Of a stretch of DNA of 64,000 bases, positions 331 through 52,823 are shown piece by piece. The translations under genes were made by a program, and so were the position numbers. The number at the start of each line of letters is the position of its first letter. Positions within the stretch are counted from its first letter, which is position 1. The DNA comes from Posidonia oceanica. Its lineage: Eukaryota > Streptophyta > Magnoliopsida > Alismatales > Posidoniaceae. The DNA is taken from positions 103,957,501-104,021,500 of the forward strand of contig JAZBRS010000026.1 in NCBI GenBank assembly GCA_037176725.1, in the 5' to 3' direction. The notes under the pieces are model-generated. The model made no database searches. It was not told the origin of the DNA and worked only from the letters and a program-made list of their open reading frames with translations.

Positions 331-1915
331 TGTAGATGTGGATTTGGGGGGTGTTTATGAAGGTAACTGTGCTTCCACATACGTTGTCAACTTTGTTGTG
401 ATCGCCACTTATCAATGGATGGACAAGGCATCTGGGGAGATGATGATGATGTGGGTAGTCGGTTCACTGGATCGACGGTAGGGTATCGTCTAGCGGCTTC
501 CTCGTATTACGTGAGCGGATTCCTTTTCCTTCAAAAAACAAGTAACAGAAGATCTGGATGAGTTTGTGTGTAGTCAATCGATCAAATAAATAGGAGATAA
601 CATAAATAAATGCAACTAATACTAACCGGGGGTTGTTCCCCGCATACATATGCTATGAATATAATCTAAAGAATGCAATAATGAAAATAAAGAGAATGGA
701 AGATGATACTCTCTTCACCCTCGTGCTGTATGCAATGGGATGAGGAAGCGGAGGCACGGTTGGAGCTCCGGGAATCCTTGAGATCTCTAGGATTCAAGGT
801 GGGATTCGATGATCTAGGGTTTCTAGGTTGAAGGTGGAGGTTAGGGTTTCTCTCTTAGAAGATAATGGATTTTGTCTCCTTGAAAACCTAAAAATTGACC
901 ACCCCCTGAGCACTAACTCACGGAGCCTTTTTATAGGTTCGTGGGGCACGGGTGGCTTAGACCTAGGAAGGTTCTAGAAGCTTCTAGAAGGGAACTGATA
1001 TTTAGGATTAGTCATCGCTATTAGGGGCGACTGGTGTAAATATCCCCCGAAAAGATCATGGAAATGCTAGGGAGACACCGCGTGACCAGGTTAGTGGGGA
1101 GTCCACGTCATTCAATCGCCTGTAACACAGGGGCCTAACTGTGGCACTAATCCAGCAACTAAAGATTTGTTTTTGATTTCTAGAAGATAAATCCTAGATT
1201 GGTTTCTGATTTTTAGGAAGATAAATCACAGATTGAAAAACGTATTTTAGAAATATCTAGGTTTTAATTTGGAAGCCACCTAGGATTTTCTAGATTTATT
1301 CCTTTCCTTAATTGATTATATGTGATTTTTATATGATATATCATATATTAAATACTTGGAAACCATGGGAATATTGATAATGTAGAAAAAGTGTTATAAT
1401 AAATTATAAAGCCCCCTCATGTATTATATTAATGTCTAGGATATTAATTATCAAGCTAGAGAGTGAGAGAAATTGCTAGTCGCCTGTCTTGAATGCGCCT
1501 ACACATTCTAGTCGCCCCTTTGAAAGGCGTCTGGATGTGTCGCCGCTCTGGGAGGCAACTAGCTAGGTCTTTTGCGTTTTTAACCCTATCTTTTAAGTTA
1601 ATCAATAGAAACATGATAAAAACTCGGAAAACTTCAGAGATCTCATGAAATCGTAAAAATATCTTCTTTAACTCAAATTTGCCACTGATCTGAGTAGGAA
1701 AAAGGGTGCTCAAGATACTTAGACTTGCCACGATCCTGATTGCGCTAGCTATGCCACAGCTAATAGCCTTGAGCCAAGTAAAATCAAGCGATGCTTTAAA
1801 CAAATCACGGAAAATCTGGAAAAAGTGTTATTAAGTCTTAGTTGTGTGATATGGGGCGCCTAGTTGGTTCCTATCCTTTAAGAACTCTTAAAAATGCGAA
1901 AATGGAATATCTACA
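331..1915 (-). repeat. LTR-A, 5' LTR of a minus-strand element
   Basis: Read on the minus strand it starts TGTAGATATTCCATTTTCGC at 1915 and ends CATCTACA at 331 (1585 bp), matching the 1577-bp LTR-A of element 3. No polypurine tract lies next to 1915 and a primer site follows 331, so it is a 5' LTR. A TATA box (TATAAAAAGG, 926-935 minus) lies upstream of the part corresponding to R/U5. It has GTCGCC-N9-GGCGAC-type modules at 1011-1031, 1479-1499, 1511-1531 and 1539-1559. The adjacent GAACC (1916-1920) is the expected target duplication, but the partner copy is off-window. Confidence 0.8.
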
Positions 1916-4786
1916 GAACCCATTTCTTCCCACACACAGACAGCGACCCAACTCCTTACACAGCAGCACACCACCCACAGAACCACCTCTCCACCTCCCT
2001 TAAACCTCCACGAGTCCACCTGCAAGAGTGAACTCACAATGAGAGCCATAGAGAGGAAAAGAGAACAAAAAATCCACAGAGCACCCACTATTTCAAATCC
2101 GTGAATTGAGAGTGGGAAGCTAGGTCTGAGACGTCCCTAAGCCTCTAGACACCTCCGTCGACTCGCTCCAGTCATGCTTGCAGCTCACCACCGCCTCCAG
2201 TGCCCCCTTTGCCTGCGCCACTATCGGCTGAAACCACCCGAGGTCGATAGACCTCTCCGCATGCTCCCTCAGGTAATGGACACTCTCTTTAGCTTCATTA
2301 CATGCCTCTCTTGCTTCCTAGCCCATCTTTTGTGCATTTCGTGCCCTGTGCTCCATTTTCCACCTCACTGGCCTTCTCCTTCTTCCCTGGCGCCGACCGC
2401 CGTCTACGAGCAAGCTCCGCCGCAGCAGACAGCCCGCCGCTCCTCCGGACCGCCTCCAGGCCCTCTCCAGACCCCCAGTGCCTCAGCCACACACCGCTCG
2501 TGGCTCGCCGCAGCCTCCCTAGCCTCCGTAGCTCGCTGGATCGCCGGAGGCCCGCGTCACCACTGTAGCACTGTACCAGAATATGGTTTTGATTTTAAAT
2601 CGTTAGTACATTGAAATAAAGTCCTTCAGGTTTTTTTCTTTTCATTTCAGTCCAGCTTTTGATTGAAAATCATTTAATTTTTGTTTTAATTCATACTACA
2701 GTGCATTTTAGTCCAGCATTTAAGTTTTATTGCACATCAGTCCTTCATGTATTCATTTAAATCATTTAATTTCGTTTAAATCATACTACATTGCATTTTA
2801 GTCTTGTGATTTATTTTATTTGCATTTAAGTCCAATTTACAATCAATCAATCATTTAAATCACATTTTGAATCTTATTGCATTGCAGAAAAGTCCTGTAA
2901 CTTATTTTATTTGCATTTTAGTCCAACAGGCTTTAATTCAATCATTTAAATCACATTTTAAATCTTATTGTATTGCAGAAAAATCCTGTAACTTATTTTA
3001 ATTGCATTTAAGTCCACTGTGCATTCATACTTTCATTTAAATCACATTTTAAATCTTCTTGCATTGCATGTAAGTCCAGTAACTTATTTTAATTGCACTT
3101 TAGTCCAGCAGGCTTTAAATCATTCATTTAAATCACATTTTTTATCTTATTGCATTGCATTTAAGTCCAGTAACTTATGCTATTTGCATTTTAGTCTTGT
3201 TTGCATTGAATCAATCATTTAAATCATATTTTGAACTATATTACATTGCAGCTTAGTCCAACAATTTGTTTTATTTGCATTTTAAACCATATTACATTGT
3301 AGTAAAATCCAATAGTTTGTTTTAATTACATGTTAATCCTAATTTCAATTGATTGCATGTTTGCATGTTTGTTTTGCATTGCACATAAGTCCAGCATGTT
3401 TTCTAAATTGCATGTAGGTCCTTTCCTTGCTTTATTGCATGCATATCTTTTAATTAATATTGCATTTTGCTCCTGCTTGCTTACATCATTGCATCATTAA
3501 TTTTTACCATACTTTTTCTCTGCTGCACTGCATTTTTCCATGTCATTGCACTTAGGCCCCTGTAGTTTACTTTAATTGCATTTAGGTCCCTATGTTTGCA
3601 CTTTTGCATGCATTGCATTCTCATTTCATTTGCACATTGCCCCTTGCACTTTTCTTAACACCTTTTGCATACAATGCATTTAGGCCCCCATTTAGACCAC
3701 CATTGCATCAGTATAGGTTTTCATCTGGCCCTTGATCCATCTGACTTGATTTCTGAATAACTTTTGATCGGACCGTTGGATCTTCACAATCTAACCATCC
3801 TGGTCTTCCTGGTTGAATGATCTTTCATTCCAACTATTTAGATCAGGCATCAGATCCTCAAGCTATGCCCACCTGAATCACTGCATATCACTCATTGCCT
3901 TGTAACTTGCAATGCATGCATTGTTTTCTCGATCTGTCTTTTTGAGCACATAGATCAGGTTTTATCATCCCTGCTTTGCTTCCCTTTGATTGTCATACTC
4001 CTGCATTGCATGGTTTTCTGCTTCTATTTTGTTTTCTCCTTTGTGTGTCACTATCCGCATTACGTGGTTTTACTTGACATTTTGTTTTTTGCTTGCATTG
4101 CATGGTTTTCCGCCTCTGTTTCGTTTCCCCTTTGCGTGCCGCTATCCGCATTGCGTGGTTTTACTCGATGTTTTGTTTCTTGCCTGCATTGCATTTAGAG
4201 TAGTGATGTTTACTGTCTAGAGTTCTTACAAACCAGGGCATGTCCTGTTCGGAACACTGACAGCACTGCTAAGCACATAGGCTGCACGTTTAATTTCCAT
4301 CACACATCATGACACCCTGAGCACACATTTGAGCATGTAATTAAAGCATACATGGCATTTAGGCATTTAAGGCATGTTTAGAGCATTCATAGCATGGCAT
4401 AGCATTCCTCACCCCTCAGGCGCTCAGTTAAGGCAAGCATTATCGATATTCCTGCATATGTGAGCGAGTTTAGCCTAGAAAGACCGGTTCCAGGTGTATC
4501 GGGGGTGCCTAACACCTTCCCCGTGCGTAATAGGAGTCCTTATCCTTTCTCTGGCCCACAGTGACCATTTTGCCCTCGTCTTTGACACGAGTCATTCATT
4601 TTGCATGGCATTGCATCCATTTGCATGTTTTCATGCATTTCCCCGGTTTTCCTCGTCTCCTGACTTAATAGACTAGGTGGTGACTCCATTTTTTGCTTTA
4701 TCTTTTGTTTTCCTCTTCACGGCTCTTCTAGTGACCTCTCTCTCTCGGGCCCTCGCTGGTCCGAATTTCGAGATGGGATCGCTACA
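1916..4786 (+). repeat. 3' part of an LTR-B copy (subfamily B1)
   Basis: This LTR segment ends GGGATCGCTACA at 4786 and lacks its 5' part, because the minus-strand LTR-A element is inserted at 1915/1916. It contains a C/T-rich part, then about 2620-3700 of degenerate repeats built on TTGCATTTTAGTCC and TCATTTAAATCACATTT. Two units of about 100 bp follow near 3995-4200. The conserved GGGGGTGCCTAACACCTTCC core lies near 4503-4522. The reverse-strand LTR at 57641-60610 is the same subfamily. It was probably inserted in the leader of element 1: the following ACTGT matches element 3's uninterrupted leader. Short ORFs here are not supported as genes. Confidence 0.75.
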
Positions 4787-5670
4787 ACTGTATTTTTAGT
4801 TTTTTTAACAGATTCTAGGCTTGTTTGCGTCTGCCACTAGGGTGGAAACTATTTTTCTAATATTAGAGTTAAAGTTCCTTGAGGGAATCTTTCTCTAACT
4901 AAATCAATCAAATCGAGCGAACCAGGCTAGTGCAAGTCGCTCTCCCTTACTCTGTTTGATTGTGATAGTTAGATTGAGAACTCAAGGTATCCTAAGGTTT
5001 TATTATTGACTCCTTTCTTCTCCCTGAGTCAATAATAATCCTTGGTAGATACTTAATACTCTAGTATTTCGTGTTTATTTACCGCTTTGTGGTTTGTTAG
5101 AATATGAGCCTAAGGACAGAATCCTAGGTTGCGGGTCCCCTCTTTAGGGATACAAACTTGCCACCTAGGCCCTCTTGGTAGACCCTAACGAAGGTCAAAG
5201 AGTGGTACCAAAGTGTCAAAAAAATCTTATTGAGTGACCCTTAGATCCCACAAAGTTGTCCTTACCCCTAGCCTAAGAACCTAATTTCTGAGAGCACGTA
5301 GGTTAAAGTAAACGATTAATTAACTACTTGAACAAGTAAAATCTTGTTTGATTCGTGGTCTGTCAAGGATAGACTCTGGTTGCTAAAAGGACTAGGACTT
5401 TCGTTGCCAGTCTGAGAGGCGACATGTTCTGCTGCCGCCTTAACCGGCAACGAGTTCTATCACCCTATATATAGGCGACACGTCACAGAACACGCCAGTG
5501 TGACTTGTTTGCAGGGTGGTTTGGCTGTTTTCAGTGACATAGATCGCAGAGATGTCAGAACAACAGAACAGTTATTTACATTCCTTTTATTTCATTAAAT
5601 CAAGTCTGTATTAAGTAGTGTTAATAGAGTTTGTACTTTCTTTTTCCCAAACATTTGTAACTATTTCACA
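4787..5670 (+). mobile_element. Leader of gag-only element 1 (LTR-A group)
   Basis: This untranslated leader aligns with 42.54-43.52 kb of element 3 (shared GGTGGAAACTATTT and GTTAAAGTTCCTTGAG stretches). It lies immediately upstream of the gag start at 5671. The 5' LTR and primer site of element 1 would lie left of the LTR-B insertion and outside the window. Three 21-nt dyad modules lie at 5403-5423, 5431-5451 and 5459-5479. No other coding sequence is seen. Confidence 0.65.
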
Positions 5671-6175
5671 ATGGAGCACATTAGTATGTCATCTACCTTG
5701 ACTTCTGCACAAGCAAGCAATTCGATGGGCCAGAACGAGTTCTTATTTAGAACCCCAATTTCACACGCAGAAGAGCTAGAAACCCCTAGCTTCTCACAAC
5801 CAATGGGTCATCTGTCTAAGGAAGCAATTGAGGAAATCTATCGATACCTGGCACAGCACCACCCCTCATTTAAGAGCCCACAAATTCCATCCATCCATGG
5901 ACCTTCTTTCCCAAATTCTTACCAAGGCTCATTAGCCACACCCACTTATGCCCATGCCATACCAAACCACACAGTAAACTTCCCTACCCAAAGTCCATTC
6001 GCACAATACCACGCAACGCCAACCTACCCTTCCACACATCAAACCATGCCATCACCTACAACCAACTACTTCCCACAATATCCAGGGGAATCCCAATCAC
6101 CACAACCATTCTCAAACACACAGTTCTACCACACTCTACCTCAATCCCTACCCTTCTCTCCACCATATATGATAT
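5671..6175 (+). pseudogene. gag: Gag N-terminal part of element 1, split by a solo LTR
   Basis: An ATG at 5671 opens about 168 codons. The N-terminal segment is rich in P, Q, N, Y, S and T and homologous to the ORF at 43523 of element 3 (shared EFLFR, AEELETPSFSQ-like and HHPSF segments). In Ogre/Tat elements this region precedes the Retrotrans_gag domain and is poorly conserved. A solo LTR (6176-8772) is inserted after codon 168, and the GATAT target duplication falls inside the coding sequence. Coding homology resumes at 8773. The gene is therefore inactive here. The start was chosen because it aligns with the ATG of element 3. Confidence 0.7.
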
Positions 6176-8772
6176 TGTGACTGTCCACACTCGGCCACGA
6201 CGGGTCTCGCACCACTACCATAGCTCGCAGTGCGATCGTGCCGTGAGAGAGGGGGAAGCCGTAGTCAACAGTGAATCCAGGGAGAAAACTCGACTCGAAA
6301 ACACCGGAAAAACTGGCGAATAATGCAAAGGAGAATAAATCAAAGACATGGAGTCGCCACCTAATCTATTAAAACGGGAAGACTAGGAAAACCGTATGAA
6401 AACATGCGAGAAAACTCAAACAATATGAAAACATGCCAATCCAGTCCAAATGAATGTGACACAAGGTCGATGTGGTCCAGAGAAAGGGTAAGGACTCCTA
6501 CTACGTGCGGGGAAGGTGTTAGGCACCCCCGACACGCCCGACGAATTGGTCTTTCTTGGCTTTTCCGCTCTTGTGTGACAAATGTTGGTAAATGAATGCC
6601 AGTTTATGTTCATCCTAAGGCGGTATGCAAGATGCAATTATAAACCATGTAAAGTTTAGCTAGATCAAACCAACTTGCTTAATTAAAGCCAAATTGACAT
6701 AAGACAACAACAAGCAAATCAGAGAAGCATGCTTAAGACAAAACAAGCTAAGTAGATGAATGGCAAGGCGACAGGCCATGGGTTCAGGCCACTGCCTGGA
6801 CTCTGAACTGAGTTGCCGGTCACCTGGGCGACCATGCTAGTTGCCTGCATTGGCGGCGTCTGCGCAGTCGCTCTATAGAACGGCGACAGCTTTGGTCGCC
6901 GCTCCTAGAGGCAGCCAAGGCTCCTGCAGGCAGGCCAGACAGCGACCTTCGCCGGCCAAATAAATCATGCAAACATTCATAAGATTTGTAACTAAGCATT
7001 CAAAACGACAGAGGGCATATCAGAGATCACAATCAAACTAACATTGCACAAAAAGGACGCTTGGACCACGAGATGTGGCGGTCCAAAGTTGGCCGAAGGA
7101 TTGCTGGAAGCAACCCAATAGTCCTAGATGGTGACCTTTGGCGCCCATTTTGGCTATGCAAACGATATTGAAAAATCGAAGAAAACATCCACATAGCAAC
7201 ATGTCATATCAGAGAACACATTTATGCAAACAGGAAGCAATATGGGTGCCCAGGTGAAGAGATATATCAGAGCAAAGTCCAGCTCGAGGGCAGCCTGACT
7301 TGCAGTCCAGTCGCCACATGTAGTGGCGCCTAACCTGGCAAACCAACTGCCGGACTTTGCAGCCAAATCCCGTGCCGTCGGCGAGGCTAAAAATACAATT
7401 AAACACCTGGGAAGCACGACGGCATTCCTAGGAGCACACACATGCATTCAAAAGCGAAAATGGCCTTGCAGATCTCTCTCCCCACCTTGTGGGTTTCATC
7501 ACCGACGGTCGAGCTTTCCGGCATCCGTCGAGACGAACGGGGAAGTCTCAGGCCTACACACGGCTCATTGGAGGTTTTAGGGAGCTGAGAGGAAGGCAAG
7601 GAAAGAAATAGAAGAAAAAACCATCAACCGGAGGCCCTCAACCGCTAGGCTCGCTGGCGTTGGCCATCCACGACGGCGTCCGACCATGTAGGAGATGGGG
7701 AGCTCGCATGGAGGCACCTGGAACACCGTTGAGCGACTGGGAAGGTTGGTGGCAGTCTGGCGGAGCTAAAGAGCGAGCCAAATCGGGGCGACCGAGCCTC
7801 CCCGATGCTTCCGTGACTCACTGGAGTCAAGGAAGATGACTCCAAGGTGTGGGAATTAGATACCCAAAAGCGCGGGAAAACATGCAAAAACGGTTCCTTT
7901 CCAACGAGGAACAAGAAGCAAGCAAGGAGGAAGGAGTTACCTGCATGTGGGCGGTTGTCTCCTTTGGCGCCGGCGAGTCCAAGCGGTGGCGAGCTCGGAA
8001 GACGGCGAATGGGGGAGTGGAATTGGGCACTGAATGCTTGGAGGAGTTCTCTCTCACACAAGGTTCGCTCTGGGATGCTCTGGAGTTAGTGGAAGCTCAA
8101 GTAAATGCGTGTGGTGAAGTGTGAGAAGGTTGGGTTCACTGATTTTGTTCGGCGAGGGCACTGGCAAGGAGGGCGGTGGCAGAGGCATGCTCCGGAGTTG
8201 GTGGCCAGAGGTGGCGTGCACGGGAGCGAGCGTAGAGAGACTAGCGTGGTAGGTGAGGAGGTGGCGTGCACGGCATGGAGTAGGTCGGCAAGGAGGCAGC
8301 TGGAAGAGTCCAAACGAGCACACGGTGGGAGAGTTTGAAGCTCTATATCTCACAGTTTAGTCGCCCCTCACGATGGCAACTAACTCAGTCGCCACTAACA
8401 TGGGCGACAACATAGTCGCCATTGCTAAGGGCGACCACATAGTCACCACAGAGAACGGCGACTATGCCTGAGATCCAGTGGGCTGGGCCGGCTGGGCTTG
8501 TGTGTTAGGTTTAAATGAGTTGGTTATTGGGATTAGTTTTGTGGTTTAACAAGGGGTTATGGACTTGTGAAAAAAGGGTTGTGGGCTTTGGTTTTGGAAT
8601 GGGCTTAGGTATGAAATGGGCTTGGGCTTAGTGTTTTGGTTTTAGGATTAGGTTTAAATGGAGTGAAGGATTTGACTAAAATTTTGGATGGGGTTTGAGT
8701 CGAGTTCGCCGCTTTCGAGCATGCTTCCAGAAAGATCCACCGACGATCAGCTACAAAAACGGGGTGTCTACA
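6176..8772 (-). mobile_element. Solo LTR (LTR-B group, 2.6 kb) inserted in gag
   Basis: On the minus strand it starts TGTAGACACCCC at 8772 and ends GGACAGTCACA at 6176 (2597 bp). It is flanked by perfect 5-bp target duplications GATAT (6171-6175 and 8773-8777). No internal element sequence is present, so it is a solo LTR left by LTR-LTR recombination. Removing it with one GATAT restores alignment with the uninterrupted gag of element 3. It carries the TGCCTAACACCTTCCCC core near 6510-6530. It also has nine 21-nt modules: 6812, 6840, 6867, 6895, 7310, 8360, 8388, 8415 and 8442. Short ORFs inside are not supported as genes. Confidence 0.9.
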
Positions 8773-13401: not shown

Positions 13402-15143
13402 TGTAAACACCCCATTTTGACAGCATGGATGATGGTGGATTTTGCTGCAAGCTCACTCAGACCCTGGGATAGCCAATCTCCTCTTAAACCCCATCTGAAT
13501 CCTAAAACCTCACCTAAAACCACCCAACCATCACCCAAGCCTTCCTAAGCCTCAACTCAACCCTAACCTGAGCCAAAAAACAATTTAGCCTTTTTTAACC
13601 TCCTGGGCTCATTGGACGTAGGCTATGGCAACTGCCTCTGCCACCTCTGGCTTACCGCTCCTGTCCTCTCCTCTGTCAGCCCACTTACTGCTGTGTCCCC
13701 TCGGCCACTTACTCACCACTCCCGGCCACCCACTACGTGCCAAGGCCACTTACTCGGCCTGCCACCGCGTCTCCTCTCCCCCGACGGTCTTCCCGCTCTC
13801 ACCACCACCCACTGCCACCACCACGACTTCCACGGCCTCCCTGACATCCCACTTACTCCTCCTAACATCCCCAGTTCCTTTCCCACTTTCCACAGCCTCT
13901 GCAATGCCGGCCATTTGCCACAGGAACCTAAACAAAACCATTGGAACCCATCATTCCAGCGACCACCACACTCATCCTCCTGAGAATGCAAAGCCTCCAC
14001 AACCTCGAGCGATCTCGCACGAGTGCACCCAAGCCTTGAGCCACCGTCCTCGGCCTTCCCTCGCGTCCCAGGAGCTCGCCGAAGTTCAACTTGCCACCTT
14101 CTTCCTCATCTTCGGCCGACTGCAAACACCTCCTTCCAGCCACGTTTAGGTGAGATTCTCTTCACCCTTGGCTTGCATATGTTTGTAGTAGTGTGATAGG
14201 TTGGTTTTTACGCACTTAGCACTGCACACACATCCCTCCTGCCTTGGCTTGCCGACTGTGAGGAGGAGGAGGTGGGTGGAGCAATCCACCCACCCATTTT
14301 TGGCACCGAGCACATGGACATGCTCGTTGTCACTCAGTCTAGCTTCCTAGCTAGTTAGTTTGAGATTTTTGGTCGATTTGGCCACTGATCTTGCTGTTTC
14401 TCTATGTTGGAGGCTGGAGCACACTGCATCCTATATTGGACACTGGTGTGTCCAGCGTCCTATGCTTCTGCATGCTTACGCATACTTCCATGCTTGAGTG
14501 TTGCTTTTATTTGAGTTGAATACTTGATCCATGCATGGGTGGTTATGTTTGGGCTCTATAGCAACTGCTTTCAAGCTTACAAGTTCTTTATCAAGGTTGC
14601 ATGTTGCTTCTCATGGGTGCATGCTCCTTTGTTTCCTTATACATGCATCTTAAATGTTTTGTTTTTGGATACTTGCTTGATACATGTTGCATGCCTTGGT
14701 TTAGCTTGTTTTCTGTAGCTTGGATGCATGTTTAAATGGTCCTTGAGCTTAGTTCTCCCTACAGTTTGATGTGCCTCTTCTCTGTGTTGGACGCAGCTGC
14801 ACACTGCGTCCTATATTTCTGCATGTCTACCTGTGGCTTAATGCTTGCATGATGATTCTACTTCTTATGTTTGCTTGATCCATGCATGTGTGGTTATGCT
14901 TAGCCCCCATAGCTACTGTTTTCAAGTTTGCAAGGCTTTCTATCTGGGGTTTATGCCGGTTTTTATGTCCATGCATTTCTCTATGTTGGACGTAGATGCT
15001 GCTTGCGTCCTACATAGGACGCAGGTGGTGCTTGCGTCTTACACCCTGGCTGCATGTTTCCTTATGCATGTGTCTTAAATGCTTTGCTTTCAAGATATTC
15101 ATTTGATCCATGTGTGCATGCTTAGCCTCCACTTGTTTACAGT
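13402..15143 (+). repeat. 5' part of another LTR-B-like LTR
   Basis: Starts TGTAAACACCCCATTTTGAC, the LTR-B start, and is cut at 15143/15144 by the Tekay-type LTR. It carries a GC-rich C-rich stretch (13.6-14.15 kb). From 14.4 to 15.04 kb it has five 23-nt dyads of the form GGACGC-N11-GCGTCC (see findings). The open frames at 13612-14149 are in the GC-rich part of the LTR and have no recognisable domain. ACAGT (15139-15143) would be the Tekay target duplication. Confidence 0.65.
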
Positions 15144-30455: not shown

Positions 30456-32077
30456 TGTAAATATCCCATTTTCGCATTTCCAAAAGTCCATTAAGGATAG
30501 GAAACCCTTGAGGCGTCCTAAATTACATGACTAAGGACTAATAACACATTTTCCAGATTTTCCAAGATTTAATTAAAAGCATCACTTGATTTTACTTGGT
30601 TCAAGGTTGTTAGCTGTGGTAGAGCTGACTCGCTCAAACTAGTGGCAAGTTTGAGCAACCTAAACACCTTTATTCTACTCAAACTAGTGGCAAGTTTGAG
30701 TCCCCTTTAGCCTTATTTAATGAGAGTTTATTAGCTGTGGCAGAGTTAATGCTCTCATTTCACTTGAATCAGTGGCAGATTTGAGTATCTTAATGTTAAA
30801 GAAGATGTCTTTATGATTTCATGGAATTTCTAAAGTTTTCTGGGTTTTTAGCATGTTTCTTTGGATTAATATAAAAGACAAGGTTGAAAATGCAAAAAAA
30901 CCATCCTGTGGCCACTTTATAAGGCAACACTGCTAGTCGCCATTCATACAGGCAACTGGAGTTGTCACTGTGAAGACAGGCGACGACTAGCCTACCTCTG
31001 TCTCCCGACAGATTTTGTCATCCTGGGCATTGATATAATATATGGGATTTATATAATGTATTACAACATTTTTCCCATAATTAATATTATTTCTACTATT
31101 TTTCTATGTACATAAATATATGATATACCATATATCATATCAATTAATTAGGGAAAGTCCTAAGAAAATGGATGATAATCTTATTCAAATTAAGATAGTA
31201 TTTTTTTGAATTAATTATCTCATTTTAATATATATATCATATGTTTTTAATTCAAAAACTGAGTTCAAAATTAAAGATAAGAATCTAGGTTGTTTCGGCA
31301 GTTACGAGCTTGGACCAGGTCAAGGGATAAGACCCCTAGACTCGTAGCTAATCAGTTAGGATTTTATTTTAGAAAAATAAAGATCTTTGTGTCTAGGTGC
31401 CACTTTAACTGGCAACTAGCTGACGTGGAATTTGCTGTTATCAGTTGCGCTATCTAGCACGCCATTCTCGCGCTAAGATATCTGCAGCCTGCCGCCACTT
31501 CAACCGGCGACTTGTTGACGTGGACCATTCTGTTACCCGATCAGCGGACTTCCACGTCATTAAAATAAGATATTTCGATCTGTCATCTATCCTTGCGGCG
31601 ACTTGAAAAATATCTATTTTAATTTTAAAATTCGTCTTTAAAAAATTCCTAGATCCTATCTACTCGAGCCCCACAACTCTATAAAAAGACCCCGAGAGCT
31701 ACAGCTCAAGGGGAGGCATTTTCAAGAGTTAAGAGATATTTCTGAGTATTAGGAGCTACTTTCTAGATTGAGAGAGAGAGATCCCTAGCCTCCACTCTGT
31801 CAAAACCCTAAGAGAAACCATAGATCCTTGAGATCTTCCTTAGCCGGAGCTCCGTCCGTGCCTCCACTTCCTCACTCCACGCCACAAGAGCATGAGGGTG
31901 AAGAGAGTACTTCATTCCAATCTATTTTTCTTTTCATTATTGCATTCCTTAGATAGGACCCATAGCATATGCATGCCGGGAACCACCCTGGTTAGTATTA
32001 GTCGCATTTATTACATTATTTCTTCTTTATTTGATCTATTTACTACACCCGGACTTACCTAGATCTATTTTGTTTAT
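30456..32077 (+). repeat. 3' LTR-A of element 2, truncated at its 3' end
   Basis: Starts TGTAAATATCCCATTTTCGC and follows LTR-A up to about CTAGATCTATTTTGTTT near 32077. It then switches to LTR-B sequence instead of the expected last 200 bp of LTR-A. ATAAAAAGACCCC at about 31681 is in the TATA position. It is more diverged than the element 3 LTRs. 21-nt dyad modules lie at 30908, 30936, 31396 and 31491. Confidence 0.75.
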
Positions 32078-35000
32078 CCTTCTCTTTCTTCTTCTCTCTC
32101 CTCTTTCTCCTCTATCTTTTTCCCCTTATTTTTCTTTCTTTCTTCTTTTCTTATTCTCCATGGGCCCAATGGGCCCAGCCCGCTCATCCTCCTCCTCACT
32201 TCTTTCCTTTTCCTTATTTTTATTTTACTTTATTTTATTCTGTTTTATTTAATTTTTTACTTTCTTTCTTCTTCTTCTTCTTCTTCTTCTTCTCCTCTCC
32301 TTTTTCTTCTTCCCCATTTTCCTCCTTTTCCTCTTTTTCTCCACAAGCCCATTAGGCCCAACCTAACTCTTCCCCCTTTCCTTTCTCTCTTTCTTTCCCC
32401 TGTTCCTTTCCACCCTTCCAGCCCAACCCAATTGCCCTTTTTTTTTTCTTTCTTTTCTTTTGCTAAGCCCAGCCCAACTGCCCCTCTTTTTCTTTCTTTT
32501 CTTTTGCCAAGCCTAGCCCACCATCTCCTCCCTTCTTCCTTTTTTCTCCCTTTTTTCCTTTTTCCAGCCAAGTCTAGCCCATAGCCCCCTCCTCTTTTTT
32601 TTCTTTTTTTTCCTTTCTTTTCCATGCACCAGCCCGACCCAGCAGCCCTCTCCTCTTTCCATTTTTTCTTTTTCCTTTCTTTTCTTTTGCCAAGCCCAGC
32701 CTGTTTCCCTCCTCTCTTCTCCTTTCTTCTTTTTCTCTATTTTTTTTTTCTTTCGGTCCAGCCCATGATCCCTCTCCTCTTTTTCTCCTTTCTCCCGTCT
32801 GCTTCGAATTTTGCAGGACACTCCACCCTCTACACACACAGCCCCTCACAGCCTTTGCTCCACGCCGCACAACTGCCGACACGCCTCCTCTGCACCACTT
32901 ACTACTAGAGACGTCCACGCCATCGTCCGGTGGTGCTCCCTCATAGAACCACCTCGTGCCGACCTCCCCAGAGACTGCCAGACCTGCACAACCCATCCCC
33001 TTTCCATTCTGCACACCCATTCCCACTCAAGCACCTGGCCTAGAACAAAACCAAGTTTTTCCATGCACTAGGGGTCGGAATTTTCACTCGCACGCACGCA
33101 CAGCAATCCTAGCAACCCATTTTCTCCTCCCTTACGCACAGTAGCTCCCCTTCTTCTCCCAAGCACCCCAGCAACCTGAGACCATCCCACTGCCCACCAT
33201 CTTCTTCCTTGCATCCCCACGACCCCAGAAACCAATTCACAGCAGACCAGAGAGCCACCCAGCCAGAGAGAGCCAGCATGGTCAAAGGTCAACTCGAAAT
33301 CCCCATTTCGTGCTAGTGCAGCGCAGCCTCCTTCTAAGCAGCTCCGGAGCTCCCTCGCAACACAAGGAACCCCCTCTAATCGCCGCGTGCCTCCGTCGCC
33401 CTTCGCGGTATCGCAGCAGATGCTCGCCGAACTGTCAAACGTAACTCGACGTTGCCAACACGCATCGGCCATCGTCACAGGTAACCGAAGTCATTTCCGA
33501 GCTCCATGCATGCCTATCCTGCTTTCTAGATAGTTAGAAGTAGGATTAGTGCCGTAGGTTAGGATTTAGCCTCCGCCGCTGCAGCGTCGTCTTCCCCGAC
33601 GAGTACTGAGCTTTGCCGCCCCACGACGTGCGTTCTAGGCCCGCTCTGTTCCTCTGGAACCTCCCCCGAGCTTCACTAGGACGTCCCCGTCCTTCGTACA
33701 TTCATTTAAAATCACTAAAATGTTAGTTTAAAACATGCATTGCATTTAGGTCCCTAGGTTTAGTTTATTTGCATTCCAGTCCTGTGCCAGTTGATCATAT
33801 CATTTAATCTACATTTAAACTATATTGCATTGCATCTAAATACTATGCTTCAGTTTATTTGCATCTTAGTCCAGTTGCAGTTCCAGCATCTCATTTAAAT
33901 TTGATTTTTACCTTATTGCATTGTATAAAAAACCCTAAAAATGTTTTAATTGCATCTGAGTCCTGTCTATTGTGAATCATGCATTTAATTTGCATTTTTA
34001 CCATATTGCATTGCATTTTAAATCCTGTGATTTGCTATTATTGCATCTAGGTCCTCTGATCAATCAGATTTCATTTAAATCATGTTTTAAACTATATTGC
34101 ATTGTTGCTTAGTCCAGAAACATGTTTAAATTGCAAGTCAGTCCCTAGAGCATGCATTCATTCATTTAAATGTGATTTTTAACCTTATTGCATTGTAATA
34201 AAGCCCTCAGGGTTTTAATATTTGCATTTAGGTCTAGTCTGGTTTCAGCTGTGATTTAAATGTGAATTTTAAACCTTATTACATTGCAATAAAATCCTAC
34301 AAGTTTCAATTATTACATTTAAGTCCAGTTTGCTTTGAATTGTGATTTAAATGTGATTTTTAAACCTTATTACATTGTAATAAAGTCCTGTGGTTTCAGA
34401 TTATTGCATTTAGATCCAATTTGCTTCCAACTGTGATTTAAATGTGATTTTAAACTTTATTACATTGCAATAAAGTCCTGCAACTTGTTGTATTTGCATT
34501 TAAGTCCTTTTTGCATACATGCATCATTTAAATGGCATTTTTTAAAAATATTACATTGCATTAAAGCCCAACTGTTTTTGCAAATTGCATGTCAGTCCAT
34601 ATTTTCCAACTTTTGCATGCTTGCATGTTTCCTTTGCTTTGCACTTAGCCCTGCATGTTTTCAAGACTACATGTAAGTCCATTTCTTGCATTATTGCATG
34701 CACATCTTTCAATTAATGCTGCATCCTGCCATGCTTTCCTGTTGCATTGCTACATTACCATTTTTGCATGCATTTACCATGTTGCATTTGCATTTTGCCA
34801 TATTTTGTACATAGGCCCCTGTATTTATTTTAATTGCACATAGGTCTCTGCATTTGCATTCTTGCATGCATTGCATCCCCATATCATTGCATATAGTTGC
34901 CATGCACCCATTCAGGCATTGTTAGTCTCCTAACATGTAAGACACCTTGCATTTGCACACACTTAGTGCTAATTTTGCACTTAGATCCCTATTTAACCCA

Positions 35001-36102
35001 CTTTTGTTGGCCCTTGAGCCATCTGACTTGCGATCTGAATAACTTTTGATCGGACCGTTGGATCTTCATGATCTAACTATCTAGGTCTTCTTGGTTGAAT
35101 GATCTTTCATTCTAACCAAAGTTATCTCAGATTGGGCTTCAGATCCTCAAGATAAGCTCATCTGAAGCACTGCATAGCATTCATTGCCCTCTCATTTGCA
35201 TTGCAAGCATCGTTTTCCGCACCCGCATTTGTTTTCTCTGCATATCGCTTGCATGCGCACCATTTTGCGTGCCCGCATTCATTTTCACTTGCATTTGCAT
35301 CGTTTTGCGTGTCCGCATTCGTTTTCTTTTGCATTTGCACCGTTTTGCGCGCCAGCATTTCTTTTCTTTCGCTTATTGCCTGCATTTGCACCATTTTCCG
35401 TGCCAACTTTCGTTTTCCCCTACATGTCGTTTGCATTGCTTTGTTTCCATCGTTGTTTTGCTTTATCGCCTGCATTTGCATTAGGGCAATGATACTTACT
35501 GCCTAGGAGTTCTCACAAAGCAGGGCTTGCCCGTTCGGAACACTAGCAGCGTTGCTGAGTACATAGCTTGCACGTTTAATTCCCTGCACACATATTAGCA
35601 CTTAAAGCACACATTAGAGCCTGCATTCAGACAGTCATTGCATTTAGGCATTAGGCAAGCATCTTCCTACATTCGTGAGCGAGATAGCCTAAGAAAGACC
35701 GATTCTCGGACGTATCGGGGGTGCCTAACACCTTCCCCGTGCGTAACAGGAGTCCCTGCCCTTTCTCTTGGCCTGCAATGACCATTTCCTTCATCCTAGG
35801 CATAAGTCATAGCTTAGCATAGCATTGCATTGCATTGCATTGAGTCGCATCTCTTTGCATCCTCTTTGCATCCGGTTTTGTATGTCTTTTCATGCATTGC
35901 CCTCGATTTTCCTTGTCTCCCAACTTAATAGACATGGTGGTGACTCTGATTTGTCTTATCATTTCTTTTTCCTCTTTTTGCCAGTGTTTCCAAGTCAAGT
36001 TTCCTTTCTCGGATTTCGTCACATATAGTGAACCTAATGTCGATCGGTGCACGCGAGCTTTGGCATCGTGCATGGACGATTCAATATTTCAGGATTACTA
36101 CA
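32078..36102 (+). repeat. LTR-B (subfamily B2), 5' end missing, inserted in copia pol
   Basis: Ends GGATTACTACA at 36102, like the 5.3-kb solo LTR. Next comes copia reverse transcriptase sequence. GCAAC (36103-36107) is the expected right target duplication, with the left partner lost. It contains C/T-rich sequence with a CTT microsatellite (32.26-32.29 kb) and GC-rich sequence (32.8-33.65 kb). Degenerate TTGCATTTAAGTCC repeats follow (33.7-34.95 kb), then TTTTGCGTGCC repeats (35.2-35.4 kb). The TGCCTAACACCTTCCCC core is near 35723-35745. The K/E/R-rich and other open frames in the C/T-rich part are composition artefacts. Confidence 0.75.
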
Positions 36103-37409
36103 GCAACCAATCTTGCTTTGTGCTTATTTAAGCTACCATCAACATTCAGCTTTGTGCGATACAACCATTTATAGCCAATCACATTCATTCCAGGAAGACA
36201 TGGAACTAGCATCCATGTAAACTCCAAATCCATGGCATGCCTCCACTTAGCTACTTTAGATGCTTGTGTATAAGAAGTGGGTGTTGAAATGAAATTTGAG
36301 ACAAGAGCCAAAGGTAGCTTATGTTTTGTACTGAAAAACACTTTCTTTTTAGAAATGCCAGACTTAGCACGAGTTTGCATAGGATGAGAGTTGACAATAG
36401 GAGTAAGAGGAATAGAAGACAAAGAAGAGGAAGAGACATTGAGATTAGGAGACATTAACACTGGATCATCAGGAGGTAAGGAAGAACAGGTAGGGGCAGG
36501 AGAAGACCCTAGAGTATTAGCTGGAGAAGAAGAAGAAGAATAAGATAGAGAACTGTCCTTAGAAGACTGGGATGAAAAGGGTGACATGAACCATGAAGTA
36601 GAAGACTCTGGTAGAATGTGCAAATTAGTACCAGAAGTAGAAGCAGCTGAAACCAAGGAATATGGAAAGTCATGCTCATCAAATCGAACACTCCTTGACA
36701 AATAAACTTTTCCAGAAGAAGGATGCCAACACTTATATCCTTTTTGATGTTGACAGTAACCAATGAAGGCACATTCAACACTTCTAAACAGAAGCTTATA
36801 TGAGGTGTAAGGTCGAAGCCAAGGATAGCATTTGTAGTCAAAAGGTCTGAGGAAGAAGTAGACTAGTTGTTTGTTGAATAACACTTGAAGCGGGGTAGTC
36901 TGATTTGCAACAATTGGCAGGCGATTAATGAGGAATATAGCAATACTAAATGCCTCTAGCCACAAGGATGAAGGAAGATGAGACTAAGCAAGCAAAGTGA
37001 GACCAGTCTCAACCAAATGGCAACGCTTTCTTTCTACGACGCTATTTTGCTCAGGAGTGTAAGGACAGGATTTTTGATGAAGAATACCCTTGTTTTTAAG
37101 AAAATCAACAAGTAATTTGCTAGAGAACTCACCTCCACCATCAGTTCTAATAGTTTTAATAGAGAGATTAAACTGATTTTCAACAAGAGTGGAAAAATCA
37201 ACAAACACTCTATAAAACTCAAATTTCTGTCGAATTGGATACAACCAACTATATCAAGAAAAATTGTCAATTATTAAAATGTAATAACAAAAGCCAACAG
37301 TGCTAAGAACAGGTGAGGGTCCCCACAAGTCACAATGCAGGAGCTGAAGAGGAGCACTGGTGGAAGGTGTTGCAGGCAAGAAGGGTAGACGACAAGAATG
37401 GCTCAGTTT
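36103..37409 (-). pseudogene. pol: Ty1/copia integrase and start of reverse transcriptase
   Basis: Minus-strand, read from 37409 down. It has the end of the pre-integrase region (LHCDLWGPSP), the integrase core (FCYYILIIDN, IRTDGGGEFSS, PYTPEQNSVVERK) and AFSIAIFLINRLP. Next are the linker HPMQTRAKSGI and the reverse transcriptase start (WRHAMDLEFTWMLV, GYKWLYRTKLN, HKARLVA). The LTR-B end at 36102 then interrupts it. In-frame stops occur, for example near 37250 and 36983. Gag lies next to it in the opposite orientation, so this is a rearranged fragment and not a gene. Confidence 0.85.
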
Positions 37410-38005
37410 CCACATCGATGGATCATCTTCTCCTCCGAGTTGCGACTCAACAGACTATCATCGCTGGTATGTTACTGATCAGGCGCTTCTCTCATGGATT
37501 AATGCTACTCTCTCTATATTTGCTCTTCCCTATACTATTGGAATGAAATCTGCTAAAGAAGCTTGGGATAAGCTGGCTAATCGCTTTGGTCAAGTTACTG
37601 TTGCTCATGTGCTTTCTTTGCACAAGCAACTGCACACTGTTAAAAAGGGCTCATTATCCATGAGTGATTATCTGTAGCGATTCAAGACTATTACTGATCA
37701 GCTTGCTACGAGCAATTCTCCTATTTATGATGATGATTTGCAAGTGTGTATCTTGAATGGTCTGTCATCTGATTATTGGTCATTTGCTTCTTCTATTCGT
37801 ACTAGTTCAACATCTGTTAACATTGAGGAGCTTCACTCTCTATTAGTTGCTGAGGAGCTCTGTTTGCTTGATGAGAGCTCTTCTGAGACAATTCTGGCTA
37901 TGGCTGCTCAGAATCAATTCAAGAAATCTTTTCGAAATAGCAAAAGCACTCAAGGTTTCAAAAATTTTCAGCACAAGAATGGCTCTAAAATCATCAATTA
38001 TTAAA
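37410..38005 (+). pseudogene. gag: Ty1/copia Gag fragment, copy 1
   Basis: Plus-strand, UBN2/Retrotran_gag_2-type Gag without its N-terminus. It shows DYHRWYVTDQALLSWINATL, AKEAWDKLANRFGQV, KKGSLSMSDYL and then a TAG at about 37677. It continues FKTITDQLATSNSPIYDDD and NIEELHSLLVAEELCLLDE. It closely matches 52.22-52.82 kb. At about 37985 it switches into inverted integrase sequence (see findings). The C-terminal zinc knuckle is missing. Confidence 0.85.
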
Positions 38006-38030
38006 ATGTAATAACTAAATGATTTCTTGT

Positions 38031-38042
38031 GGGAGGGGCATC
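38031..38042 (+). other. Polypurine tract orphaned next to an LTR-B
   Basis: GGGAGGGGCATC directly precedes the LTR-B start at 38043. The element interior that should lie to its left has been replaced by copia sequence, so only the tract survives. This implies that 38043 was a 3' LTR. Confidence 0.6.
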
Positions 38043-40570
38043 TGTAGACACCCTATTTTGACAGACTTTTAGTTGGAAGATCTCTGGAGACTTGCTCAAA
38101 CTATGGCATGGCAAATCCAAATTCCAAACCTAATCCCAATCCAGCCAAACCCTATTCGTCACCTAAACCCTACCCTAAACCAACCTTGACCTAGACCTAA
38201 TATCACTTAAACTTCCTTCACACCCTAAACCAACCCAAACACCACCTAAAACAACCCAAAACATTCAAATTACCCAAAACCTAACACCACAAGCCCTCAC
38301 AAAGCCCAAAACTCATTGGTGGTTCAAGGACAAGGAAGTGGGTTTGGATTTCACTGTACAGGCCCAGTCCACTGGGTTACACGCTCTGTCGCCACTCTCA
38401 GCGGTGACTAGATTCTGTCGCCACTCTAAGCAGCGACTGAGTTTGGCGCCACATGGAGCAGCAACTTTCTGCAACTCAGGCCACCGCTGGTCACCACTGG
38501 CCGTCCTCTCCTGCTACCCTGTCCACTCCCCACTTACTACCACACTACCTCCACCCAGTAGACGCCAACTGCCACTTACTTCTTGGCACTGCGTCTCCTC
38601 CTTACCGACGTCTTTCCCGCTCTCACCACCATCACTGACCGGCTGCCTACCACCTGACGACGGCCATGACCTTCGACGTCCTCTCTTGCCCCGTACTTAC
38701 TTCCCTCATTTACTCACCTGCAAATCCAGCACAGAATTCGCTCTCTCCCCCCTTTCACTGCCACAACCTTCCACTTGTGCCGCCCTTGCCAGAACAAAAT
38801 CGGCAACCCAACAGTGAACCCATTCACCAAACACACAATTCAGAGCCTCCAAGTGAGAATTCAAGCATCCCAGAGCATTTCCCATTCTCCCTTGTGCGAT
38901 TGAAAGCCTTCTCGAGCGATCCCAAGCCTCCCACACCTTGTCGTGCCACACGAACCCATCTCCGGTCACCTTCTCCACCTCTGTTCGTCACTCTGGCGAG
39001 CCATAGAGGTGAAACACCTCAGCCTTTTGCATGCTTGAGGATCCGGGAACGTTCCCGGACCTCCTCCCCTCGCGGCTGGATAACCCAGCCATCCTCTTGC
39101 ACTCCCGGCCGACCCAACGGCCGACGACGCGTGGCAATGCTGGTGAGCACCGGCGGAGGCGGGAAAGAGGCGCCTGCCTCTTCTCTCACCCTGCCAACGT
39201 TCCCTCACGTCCTCCTCATCCTCACGACACTTCCTAGCTACCTCCTTGGGTCACTAGCCGTGCATGTGGTCGGAACTCAACGAGCTCCGGCGACGCAAAG
39301 TGGAGGAGGTGGGTGGAGCGATTCAAGTCACCATTTCCCACACCGAAGGTGTGCCTATGATCGTGGGACTGCTGTGAAGCTTCCCTAATCAACCCTGGCC
39401 TTTTCGGCTTCACCGGGAGTGCACAATACGGCGTTGAAGTTCGATCATCGGACTGCCAAGTTCGTCGCCTCTCCTAGCGGCGACTGGTCTGCAACTTCGG
39501 ACTGCCATCAGCCAAACTTTGGGTCGATGCTCTGGGCAATCCAGACCTCTGTTTTTCTTGATTTTTGTATGCCTGTGATCGTGGATGAATGCTCTTTAAT
39601 GACATGTATTTAGATGTTTACTTTGCATCGCATGTGGTGCAAGATTTGGCGCTAAAGTCCACTGTTTGGATTGCCTAGACTGTAGGGGTGTCGCCTGTTC
39701 CACCGACGACTAACCTGCAAATTTGGCAGTCCTCCGGCCCGACTTTGAGCTGATGTAGCTCATGACCCAGGCATCCATTTTAAGTGATTTTTGCTTCCAT
39801 GTAATCGTGGTTGATTGGTCTTCAATTCCTTGCCTTTAGTTTTTAATCGTGTATAGCCTTGGGTGCGGGATTTGGTGATGAAGTTCGGCCCTGGACTACC
39901 AATTTGGTCGCCGCTCACACCGGTGACTCGACTGTATTTTTAACAGTCCATCGGTCGAACTTTAGGCCATCGTATCTCGTGATCTATGTTTCCATTTTAC
40001 AAAGTGATTGCATAGTTTTAATCTTGGATATGCCATCTTCATTTCTATGATTTTAGTTTTAAGTTTAGCATTGTTTACATAGCCTTTTTATGGCAATGAA
40101 TGTCGCTGTCTGGGAGTTGTGTGTGCGCTTGTGTCGCCTGTGATACCGGCAACTTTCTCCGGCGCCCTTCACAACGGCAACTTGTGTTGTCGCTGCACTG
40201 AGAGGTGGCATGTGTCTCGTCGATCTCATCGGTGACATGTGCTGCCACCGATCAGGGTGGTGACCCAGTCCAGACAGTGGACAAAGCCACTCATTTGCCA
40301 CTTTTCGCTTTGTCCACTCGACTCATTGTAATCTTAGTTTTAACCTTGGATATGCTATCCTTAATGCCATGTTTCTAGTTTTCTGTTTCGTATGGTTTTC
40401 TTAGCCATTTTTTTTGGCAATGATCGTCGCTGTTTGGAAGCAAGGTATTTGTCTCTGCCGCCTGTGCTACCGGCAGTAGGCACTGCTGCCGCTCATGCCG
40501 ACGACCCATGCAGTAGTCTAGGCAGTGGACAAAGCCACCCATCTGTCGGCTTGTTTTGTTTACTCGACTT
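38043..40570 (+). repeat. LTR-B (subfamily B3), first 2.5 kb
   Basis: Starts TGTAGACACCCTATTTTGAC. Element 3 is inserted after 40570, and the LTR resumes at 50041 and ends at 50599, giving about 3.09 kb when rejoined. Its first 1.0 kb occurs again inverted at 52853-53885. An 18-bp perfect palindrome TCCGGGAACGTTCCCGGA lies at 39042-39059. 21-nt modules lie at 38388, 38417, 39464, 39690, 39907 and 40133. The GC-rich open frames at 38338-39388 show no domain. Confidence 0.8.
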
Positions 40571-42147
40571 TGTAGATATCCCATTTTCGCATTTCCCAGA
40601 GTTCATAGAGGACAGGGACTTCTAAGGCACCAAAGATCACATGTCTAAGGCTTAACAACACATTTTCCAGATCTTCCTTGATTTCTTCAAGCATCACTTG
40701 ATCCTACCTTGACTCAGGTTGTTAGCTGTGGCAGAGCCAACTCACTCAAACTCGTGGCAAGTCCGAGTACCCTGAATATCCTTTATTTCTACTCAGATTC
40801 GTGGTAGATTTGAGTTAACAGAGATGCCTTCTTGATTTCATAGACTATCTGTAGTTTCCCGACCTTCTATCTTGTTTCTCTGGCCAAAACCTGGAAAATA
40901 GGGTTGGAAATGACCTAAGCTTATTAGTTGCCAGCTGAGGAGGCGACCATCCTAGGCACCATTTAAGGAGGCAACTAAGAAGGATGTCCCTACAACAGGC
41001 GAGCTACCTTGTAGCCAACTGAGGAGGTGACCCACATAGGTGCCACATCATCAGGCGACTGAACTAAGCATCGACCAAAGGGGCGACTAACAGTCATAAC
41101 CGCTCTGGCAGTTGCTTTTCCACGGTCAATTCCCACTAACCCCTCAACCTTTAGGCGCCATCTCAACAGGCGACTAGACGGTTGTGGAACTGCCTCGGTC
41201 TCCCCCACGATCCTTAACCATTAGACGCTGCTCCCTGCGGTGACTAGCAATCGTGGCCTCCTTTGAACCGCTTTTCCACGGTTATTTTACACGATCACCT
41301 TGACTGTTAGACGCCAGCTCTATCGGCGACTAACTATCGTGCCTCATTCCCGGGTCTTCCACACTTTGACCAAGTAGTTGCTAGGTTTAGGCGCCACTTC
41401 AACCGGCAACTCAAACTAACTGCCACTTTTCTAGAATTTTCTGAACTCCAACTATCCCTACACCCCTTGGAGTCTATAAATAGACCCCGTGGGTCAGTGT
41501 TTGAACCCCCGGTCATTCTTGGAGAGAGAGCCCCCTCAGTTAGGTCAAAAAGAGATCTTTTGTAGATTTTAGGTTTCTGAGCTTCCACTTTCAAACAGCT
41601 AGAGTTTCCAAACCAGAAACCCTAGTCTCCACCCTCTATCCAGAGAGAAACCCAAGATCCCAGAGATCACTACAACCCCAACTACGATCCCAGAGATCTC
41701 GAACCTAGCCGGAGCTCCGATTGTACCTCCACTTCTACTCCACTGCAAACAGCACAAGGGTGAAGGGAGTATCTTCCAATCTTTTTATTTCATATTGCAT
41801 TCCTTAAAATAGGACCCATAGCATATGCATGCGGGGAACAACCCCCGGTTAGTATTAGATTCGTTTGTTAATATTGTTCTTTGTTTGTTTTTTATTAACA
41901 GTTACTACACGAACTAATCTAGATCTTTGATTTTTATTTGTTTTGAAGGAAAGGAAAACGCTTGCGTAGCACGAGGAGGCCGCTAGATGACACCCAGCCG
42001 TCGATCTAGTGGTCCGAGAACCCACATTTTCACAATCTCCCCCCAGGTGTCTTGTCTACCCAAAGGCGAGTGGCGATCACAACAAAGCTGTTGACGTCGT
42101 GGAAGCGCCAGCATCTTCATCTTCAACACCCCAAAAATCCATCCACA
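40571..42147 (+). repeat. 5' LTR-A of element 3
   Basis: Begins TGTAGATATCCC after GACTT and ends AATCCATCCACA. It is the template for defining LTR-A in this window. It is rich in 21-nt dyads: 40927, 40955, 41011, 41039, 41067, 41154, 41224, 41310 and 41390, all upstream of the TATA box. U3 by this reading runs to about 41500. Confidence 0.9.
41475..41482 (+). promoter_or_regulatory. TATA box of element 3 5' LTR
   Basis: TATAAATA, followed by GACCCCGTGGG. It is conserved in the 3' LTR at 49363-49370. Comparable TATAAAAAGG and ATAAAAAGACCCC motifs occur at the same place in the other LTR-A copies. Transcription would start about 30 bp downstream. Confidence 0.6.
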
Positions 42148-52038: not shown

Positions 52039-52823
52039 ATGGCGTTCGTCTCATCTTGCGGTGGCATTGCTACCGGAACATCGTCCAATCAAGTTCTGTC
52101 GGTTGCTTCCCCTCTTGTGATCAACAACATTGCCGGTTTGATTCCAATCAAGCATGATGGAACGAACTACTTGATGTGGCGATCGTCGTTTGAGCCTGTT
52201 CTTCGTGGTCAGAATCTCATGTACCACATCAATGGATCATCTTCTCCTCCGAGTTGCAACTCACTAGACTATCATCGCTGGTATGTTGCTGATCAGGCGC
52301 TTCTCTCATGGATTAATGCTACTCTCTCTATATCTTCTCTTCCCTACACTATTGGAACGAAATCTGCTAAAGAAGCTTGGGATAAGCTGGCTAATCGCTT
52401 TGGTCAAGTTACTACTACTCATGTGCTTTCTTTGTGCAAGCAACTGCACACTGTTAAAAAGGGCTCGTTATCCATGAGTGATTATCTGTAGCGATTCAAG
52501 ACTATTACTGATCAGCTTGCTACGAGCAATTCTCCTATTTCTGATGATGATTTGCAAGTGTGTATCTTGAATGGTGTGTCATCTAATTATCAGTCATTTG
52601 CTTCTTCTATTCGTACTAGTTCAACATCTGTTAACATTGAGGAGCTTCACTTTTTGTTAGTTGCTGAGGAGCTCTGTTTGCTTGATGAGAGCTCTTTCGA
52701 GACAATTCTGGCTATGGCTGCTTAGAATCAGTTCAAGAAATCTTTTCGAAATAGCAAAAGCACTCAAGGTTTCAAAAAATTTTAGCACAAGAATGGCTCT
52801 AAAATCGTCAATTATTAAAATTT
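52039..52823 (+). pseudogene. gag: Ty1/copia Gag, copy 2
   Basis: Starts at ATG 52039 (MAFVSSCGG). It has the Gag N-terminal HDGTNYLMWRSSFEPVLRG, DYHRWYVADQALLSWINATL, AKEAWDKLANRFGQV and SMSDYL, then a TAG at about 52489 at the same site as in copy 1. It continues NIEELHFLLVAEELCLLDE and a TAG near 52724. The end of the frame runs into inverted integrase sequence at about 52805. The rest of the element is missing. Confidence 0.85.

Follow-up and report, generated by a model that had tools for sequence, protein, structure and literature searches.

A fixed-spacer dyad in the LTRs of Ty3-type retrotransposons of Posidonia oceanica as a putative bipartite DNA-binding site

Plant LTRs are usually too variable for their regulatory logic to show from sequence alone. 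In the 3-Gb genome of Posidonia oceanica such logic is exposed by a short dyad, GTCGCC-N9-GGCGAC (class 1), whose gap is invariant over tens of thousands of copies, which stands at a set distance from the TATA box, and which is accompanied by a second class, GGACGC-N11-GCGTCC. An initial annotation of one stretch of 64,000 nucleotides (contig JAZBRS010000026.1, positions 103,957,501 to 104,021,500; hereafter the window) had held that no described system matches the dyad. This was too strong, since palindromic repeated motifs (RM) upstream of the TATA box have been described in Sirevirus LTRs and are, as far as that account goes, the closest precedent (PMC2829016).

In Sireviruses, which are Ty1/copia elements, the RM are reported to have a CGG-CCG core in 12 of 13 cases, to differ between families and to number at least eight copies per element, with clusters that begin before the TATA box, 200–400 bp into the LTR, and form CpG islands (PMC2829016). 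The modules of P. oceanica resemble them in the place of the cluster (201–452 bp inside the LTR in 17 of 21 cases and before the TATA box in nine of nine, see below) and, in element E3, in lying in a CpG-rich stretch. The lineage is different, with a Ty3-type gag (PF03732) here and copia elements there, as is the core, both GTCGCC/GGCGAC and GGACGC/GCGTCC being without CGG-CCG; moreover, whereas the Sirevirus palindromes are described as having a few intervening bases at most, these being part of the conserved motif (PMC2829016), the gap here is of 9 bases (11 in class 2), mostly variable, and some copies lie, still within the LTR, beyond the TATA box. Set against that account, the Ty3-type lineage, the wide variable spacer and the switch of class look new, and the comparison suggests that copia Sireviruses and Ty3-type elements reached a similar promoter design separately.

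The targets of VANC in VANDAL DNA transposons are described as single short words (YAGTATTAY; AGTTGTCC) read by an element-encoded, sequence-specific DNA-binding protein, which removes DNA methylation (PMC5735166). Like the modules they are dense, non-coding, of the same orientation, tandem-multiplied and different between related families; the modules are themselves dense, non-coding, variable between families and of one orientation, with a single locus (L001) reversed. The VANC motifs differ in that, as described there, they contain no gapped dyad, belong to DNA transposons and have an identified reader protein (PMC5735166). In tobacco Tnt1, BII boxes that are repeated in U3 upstream of the TATA box bind nuclear factors (PMC3316501), and in this U3 repetition the modules are alike; Tnt1 is, in contrast, a copia element, the boxes concern one family, and that account reports, in its accessible part, no genome-wide fixed-gap dyad. 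By analogy with these partial accounts, if the reader of the modules is element-encoded and coevolves with them, VANC would be its best model, and if it is host-encoded, Tnt1 BII. Retand elements, which are Tat-related Ty3 elements with an antisense TRP28 ORF, are similar in their Ty3 lineage, in the length of their non-coding parts and in that they may encode a DNA-binding protein themselves; they differ in their LTR length of 315–1,194 bp, and LTR dyads are not mentioned in the part of that account available (PMC11963269). GTCGCC-N9-GGCGAC was not found named in the accessible portions of the literature searched.

Number, spacing and setting of the modules

The class-1 module is a 21-nt frame in which the inverted arms GTCGCC and GGCGAC enclose a 9-nt spacer. 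In agreement with the 45 to 50 copies first annotated at this fixed spacer, the window contains 50 with up to two mismatches, two of which (7957 and 21061) look like chance matches. The same scan gives no copies at spacers 8 and 10, and the excess over shuffled sequence on which the annotation's reading depended is present at spacer 9, dinucleotide shuffles of the window (n = 60) having a mean of 0.63 copies and a maximum of 3. The next spacer peak in the window, at 37 (21 copies), arises because 9 + 28 joins the arms of neighbouring modules. All 43 coordinates first annotated hold a 21-nt frame of the module kind, 37 with at most two mismatches and five with three (5431, 31396, 40955, 41224 and 43128), while at 41067 the right arm is exact and the left arm poor. 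Further copies, with two or three mismatches, stand at 30964, 31582, 38445, 40161, 40189, 40216, 40244, 40485 and 53463, and the 3′ LTR of element E3, previously named only in general terms, has eight (48815–49278). That no module lies to the right of 54 kb is true at up to two mismatches.

Across the 2.96-Gb host genome there are 37,261 exact class-1 copies against 29 of a reversed-pattern control; the spacer counts, which cover spacers 0 to 9, give 1,438 exact copies for spacers 0–8 summed (control 912), and over this range the fixed spacer proposed from the window is borne out at genome scale. In 20 systematic, evenly placed 10-kb stretches of the genome, spacer 9 is also the commonest (23 copies, several of which stand alone and may be due to chance), with lesser peaks at spacers 18 (15 copies) and 6 (14) and an excess milder than that of the window; exact copies number 0 against about 2.5 expected. 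When all complementary 6-mer dyads were ranked over 331 kb, made up of the window and 30 further loci (labelled L), GTCGCC at spacer 9 came first. The double-module pattern had no matches in viral contigs.

Orientation relative to transcription is uniform in the window and common to eight of nine loci outside it, the exception being L001. This common orientation is such as tandem copying gives and, together with the tandem steps of 27–29 bp between neighbouring modules, would suit functionless relics of old tandem repeats, spread by unequal exchange and with arms alike by descent. Yet the loops are distinct in 46 of the 50 exact genome copies listed, spacers 8 and 10 are absent from the window, and descent alone would not hold CpG-containing arms at 86% identity with loops at 59% and flanks at 74%; an origin of this kind is scarcely probable at all.

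The module-bearing LTRs are of two kinds, type A (TGTARATATCCCATTTTC) and type F (TGTAGACACCC). The features of the window, including those of class 2, are as follows.

1011 to 1559, minus strand: class-1 modules 1479, 1511 and 1539 and a TATA-proximal one at 1011; LTR start about 1915, TATA box 935
5403 to 5479, plus strand: three class-1 modules at 28-bp steps in the E1 leader
6176 to 8772, minus strand: solo LTR (TGTAGACACCCCG... on this strand), with GATAT on both sides and modules also at 6812, 6840, 6867, 6895 and 7310
8360 to 8462, minus strand: four class-1 modules (8360, 8388, 8415, 8442) in the solo-LTR U3, at +310 to +392
14409 to 15039, plus strand: class-2 modules 14409, 14438, 14789, 14988 and 15017, about 1.0–1.6 kb inside an LTR-like start at 13402
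30908 to 31602, plus strand: class-1 modules 30908, 30936, 30964, 31396, 31491 and 31582 in the U3 of a type-A LTR (start 30456, TATA box about 31680)
38388 to 40505, plus strand: modules of a type-F LTR (start 38043), on the promoter side 38388, 38417 and 38445
39464, 39690, 39907, 40133, 40161, 40189, 40216, 40244 and 40485, plus strand: downstream modules of the same type-F LTR, in steps of 217–226 and 27–28 bp
40927 to 41410, plus strand: U3 modules of the E3 5′ LTR at 40927, 40955, 40983 (degenerate), 41011, 41039, 41067 (left arm poor), 41154, 41224, 41310 and 41390; TATA box at 41475
42353 to 42429, plus strand: three class-1 modules in the E3 leader, directly after the 5′ LTR
43128 to 43204, plus strand: three class-1 modules before gag in the E3 leader, in a place that matches 5403–5479 in E1
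48815 to 49298, plus strand: class-1 modules of the E3 3′ LTR (48459–50035), eight at up to two mismatches
53463 to 53540, minus strand: class-1 modules 53463, 53491 and 53520, an inverted copy of 38388–38465, in a type-F LTR that starts at 53885 on the minus strand

Element E3 is an insertion with GACTT on both sides, and its LTRs (40571–42147 and 48459–50035) are 98.9% identical. E1, whose gag runs from about 8835, is interrupted by the solo LTR at 6176–8772; the copies from 6812 to 8442 are part of this nested, minus-strand solo LTR and not, as had been thought, of a leader. The E1 and E3 gags are related and both match Retrotrans_gag (PF03732), not copia gag families; when other open frames of 150 aa or more from these elements were compared with Pfam, none matched. 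A protein search with gag matched nine proteins, and of 39 candidate gag relatives in viral contigs none was confirmed. With the Tekay-type RT, the named matches among the best 120 of 8,000 scored are nearly all from flowering plants and none exceeds 75% identity, one other match being at 96%. A search of the window for tRNA genes returned none.

Other repeats occupy the same DNA. The stretches 37395–39052 and 52211–53897 share a 0.6-kb part in direct and an adjoining 1.0-kb part in inverted orientation, 94–95% identical. A third repeat family, with 90–91-bp tandem repeats inside (2561–4788, 33690–36100 and 57639–60100), is without class-1 modules at two mismatches. The satellite-like array at 54920–56540 has units with the short dyads GATAAG-TTTCGGA-CTTATC and GATGAG-TTTCGGA-TCATC, in which, by eye, the loop is alike and the arms differ, the reverse of the module with its constant arms and variable loops. 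At 61190–62060 there are 127-bp tandem units about 94% alike, beside a degenerate array of 33–71-bp units.

Place within the LTR and conservation

Across the window and loci TGTARAYAYCCY, which marks LTR starts, has 21 matches, and a module lies 201–452 bp downstream of 17 of them, a proportion that is no genome frequency because the window, L001–L004 and L025–L030 were chosen for their modules. Among the 17, L010 carries class 2, L003 has in range only a weak class-2 match, and position 1035 of the window is probably no LTR start; the four matches without a module are 13241 (a truncated LTR), 13402, 18495 and L014:588. In type F, additional copies follow from +1180 onward. The number of copies per LTR reaches eight in the E3 3′ LTR at up to two mismatches and is lower elsewhere, for example four in the first 1,080 bp of L029.

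In all nine LTRs with a type-A promoter (E3 5′ and 3′, LTR30k, LTRminus, L003, L004, L007, L027 and L029) the modules precede the shared TATA box CTATAAAWAGRCY, which is found 886 to 1286 bp from the LTR start; other TATA-like words occur in six of the nine, and the word common to all was taken. From the start of the last module to this box the distance is 84, 85, 85, 85, 86, 86, 96, 96 and 98 bp, and the two modes, 84–86 and 96–98 bp, are about one helical turn apart. This constancy is partly by descent, because the stretch from module to TATA box is 53–98% identical between LTR pairs and L004 and L027 are near-copies.

In aligned LTRs the arms are 86.0% identical, the flanks 73.6% and the loops 58.8%, as counted over 44 module pairs with a flank identity of at least 0.6, the other 16 of 60 in-register pairs having been dropped before the count, from 12 LTR pairs with members shared between pairs. 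A module-anchored test of 28 pairs gives 82–84% for arms, 41% for loops and 38–41% for linkers. The arms hold CpG, which is expected to decay faster than average, such that their excess of identity points to selection. In this regard, the conservation of the arms above their flanks and the set promoter place support the view that the class-1 modules are under selection, as the annotation had supposed. Loop identity is below that of its own flank in 34 of the 44 pairs, and in the extreme pair, LTRminus/L029, one of nine loop bases is alike in LTRs 88% identical from module to TATA box. That loops change faster than flanks is nevertheless tentative, because alignment on the flanks inflates their identity and the pairs share members.

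The module region of E3 has a CpG observed/expected ratio of 0.75 and a GC content of 0.53, the LTR start before it a CpG ratio of 0.33. Such CpG richness would fit dyads that are targets or by-products of host silencing, either as hairpins feeding small RNAs or as sites of silencing factors, and kept as silenced copies are tolerated; a later paper on the palindromes of maize Sireviruses reportedly connects these with small RNAs. An element should, in contrast, lose a target of this sort, yet the arms are conserved above the flanks and the modules are kept at promoter distance, and silencing as the origin of the dyads is very unlikely.

RNA hairpin or DNA site in class 1

The initial annotation had proposed either a selected RNA hairpin or a paired protein site. 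Inverted arms, a fixed loop length, a single orientation relative to transcription and the copies in leaders are all consistent with hairpins of a 6-bp stem and 9-nt loop that the genomic RNA would carry in its leader and 3′ U3, and that might serve packaging, translation or reverse transcription. Modules that precede the TATA box would be missing from the RNA 5′ end and present only in the 3′ U3. In class 1 the arms tell against this. In a set of 49 non-redundant copies from the window, Watson–Crick pairs make up 218 of the 294 arm pairs, against 221.7 (sd 3.9) with partners shuffled, and the compensated changes by which the arms had been said to vary are close to absent, at 3 of the 294 pair cells, although covariation can be hidden since most copies have decayed since insertion. 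As the choice of copies by total mismatches disfavours doubly compensated ones, a second selection was made on the right arm alone, on both strands: among 54 right arms with exactly one change, and other left-arm bases mostly fitting, the partner is consensus in 44, compensated in 4 and otherwise in 6. Folding shows no advantage of native over swapped halves (−7.05 against −7.13 kcal/mol, 58.5% of 200 swaps being as good), and sense-strand changes that form G-U and A-C are 25 and 21 in the window and 18 and 13 in nine loci outside it. Moreover, about half of the copies have a mismatch at the second arm pair, and many families retain it there while the adjoining outermost G and C stay. Rfam has no matches in the window at gathering score. 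With neither covariation, folding advantage nor G-U bias, the hairpin was rejected as the main reading of class 1, so that this half of the annotation's alternative lacks support there and the protein-site half fits; for the modules at large, the hairpin is an unlikely explanation.

The favoured reading, which is probable if by no means assured, is that the module is a bipartite DNA-binding site, read by a putative dimeric or two-domain protein and used by a group of Ty3-type LTR retrotransposons in their promoters and enhancers. It draws on the excess at N9 (37,261 copies against 1,438 for spacers 0–8), on the place of the modules in the LTR and before the TATA box, on the conservation of their arms and of the outer G and C, on their common orientation, on the lack of arm covariation in class 1, and on the Tnt1 and Sirevirus precedents. 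Of 92 half-sites, 77 have C or G as the second loop base and 55 have T as the third, and the second bases form the combinations G-G and C-C in 11 of 46 loops, a pattern that is read as two extended half-sites seen by a protein, the left being the weaker. Watson–Crick pairing at loop pair 2 (22 of 46 against 16.6 shuffled, P 0.058) is borderline and could be an RNA signal; over the whole loop there are 67 of 184 such pairs against 60.4 shuffled (P 0.14). The second arm pair is lopsided, its left T being changed in 24 of 50 and its right A in 3 of 50 window copies (P 5e-5), and in 28 and 6 of 66 outside the window (P 2e-4), with L001 against the rule (0 left and 4 right changes); this is not expected of a perfect homodimer site and counts against the bipartite reading.

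In the bipartite model, two inverted half-sites of about WGTCGCC-N-S-T each, with arm centres 15 bp apart, would be bound by a dimeric or two-domain DNA-binding protein. Arrays in U3 at 28-bp steps, with the copies in the transcribed LTR and leader, would furnish each element with many sites, of which the last in U3 is held at a set distance from the TATA box, and the bound protein would drive or protect transcription, by activation or by countering silencing. The reader may be encoded by the host or by a partner element. A candidate binding protein for the modules was not found, which also counts against the model. The modules offer, in this respect, a direct way to search for the protein by which a large group of repeats is driven or unsilenced.

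In L007, frames with matches to the plant mobile domain (PF10536) below the Pfam curated cut-off, at 1762–2328 and 5880–6365 on the minus strand, flank a module-bearing LTR on both sides. They were considered as an element-encoded binder and dropped, because no polypurine tract precedes that LTR and the frames are not assignable to it.

The second class

In the ranking of 6-mer dyads over 331 kb, GGACGC at spacer 11 is, shifted forms aside, the next dyad after GTCGCC. With at most one mismatch, GGACGC-N-GCGTCC occurs 25 times at spacer 11 and 6 times at spacer 10 in the window and 30 loci, and 0 times at spacers 9 and 12. The spacing of the core, CGC-N11-GCG, is common to the two classes, and class 2 is found in related LTRs; indeed, L010 has class-2 copies 277 and 306 bp inside a TGTARA-type LTR, where type F has class 1. 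Class-2 copies are often paired exactly 29 bp apart, with the pairs mostly about 200–350 bp apart (L024, L010 and the window).

The halves of class 2 covary, and native folds beat swaps on both strands (−13.0 against −11.9 kcal/mol, 0.5% of swaps being as good), a point in favour of the hairpin. This covariation could fit a stem and, equally, a symmetric protein site with a drifting preference. Under the bipartite-site reading, GGACGC-N11-GCGTCC would be expected if the base preference of the protein changed and the geometry was kept. A wider proposal, offered tentatively and thought rather unlikely as a whole, is that of a clade of Ty3-type plant retrotransposons with a promoter code of its own, in which dyad arrays of fixed geometry (CGC-N11-GCG) would have as readers a single family of coevolving proteins, which the elements themselves might encode and provide in trans to relatives that have only gag; element families would diverge by a switch of the other half-site bases (GTCGCC to GGACGC) with the spacing kept, and loops would outpace neutral flanks.

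In L024:5991-8288 there are fourteen class-2 modules, most of them paired at a distance of 29 bp, and several of these pairs are about 200–211 bp from one another, close to nucleosome spacing.
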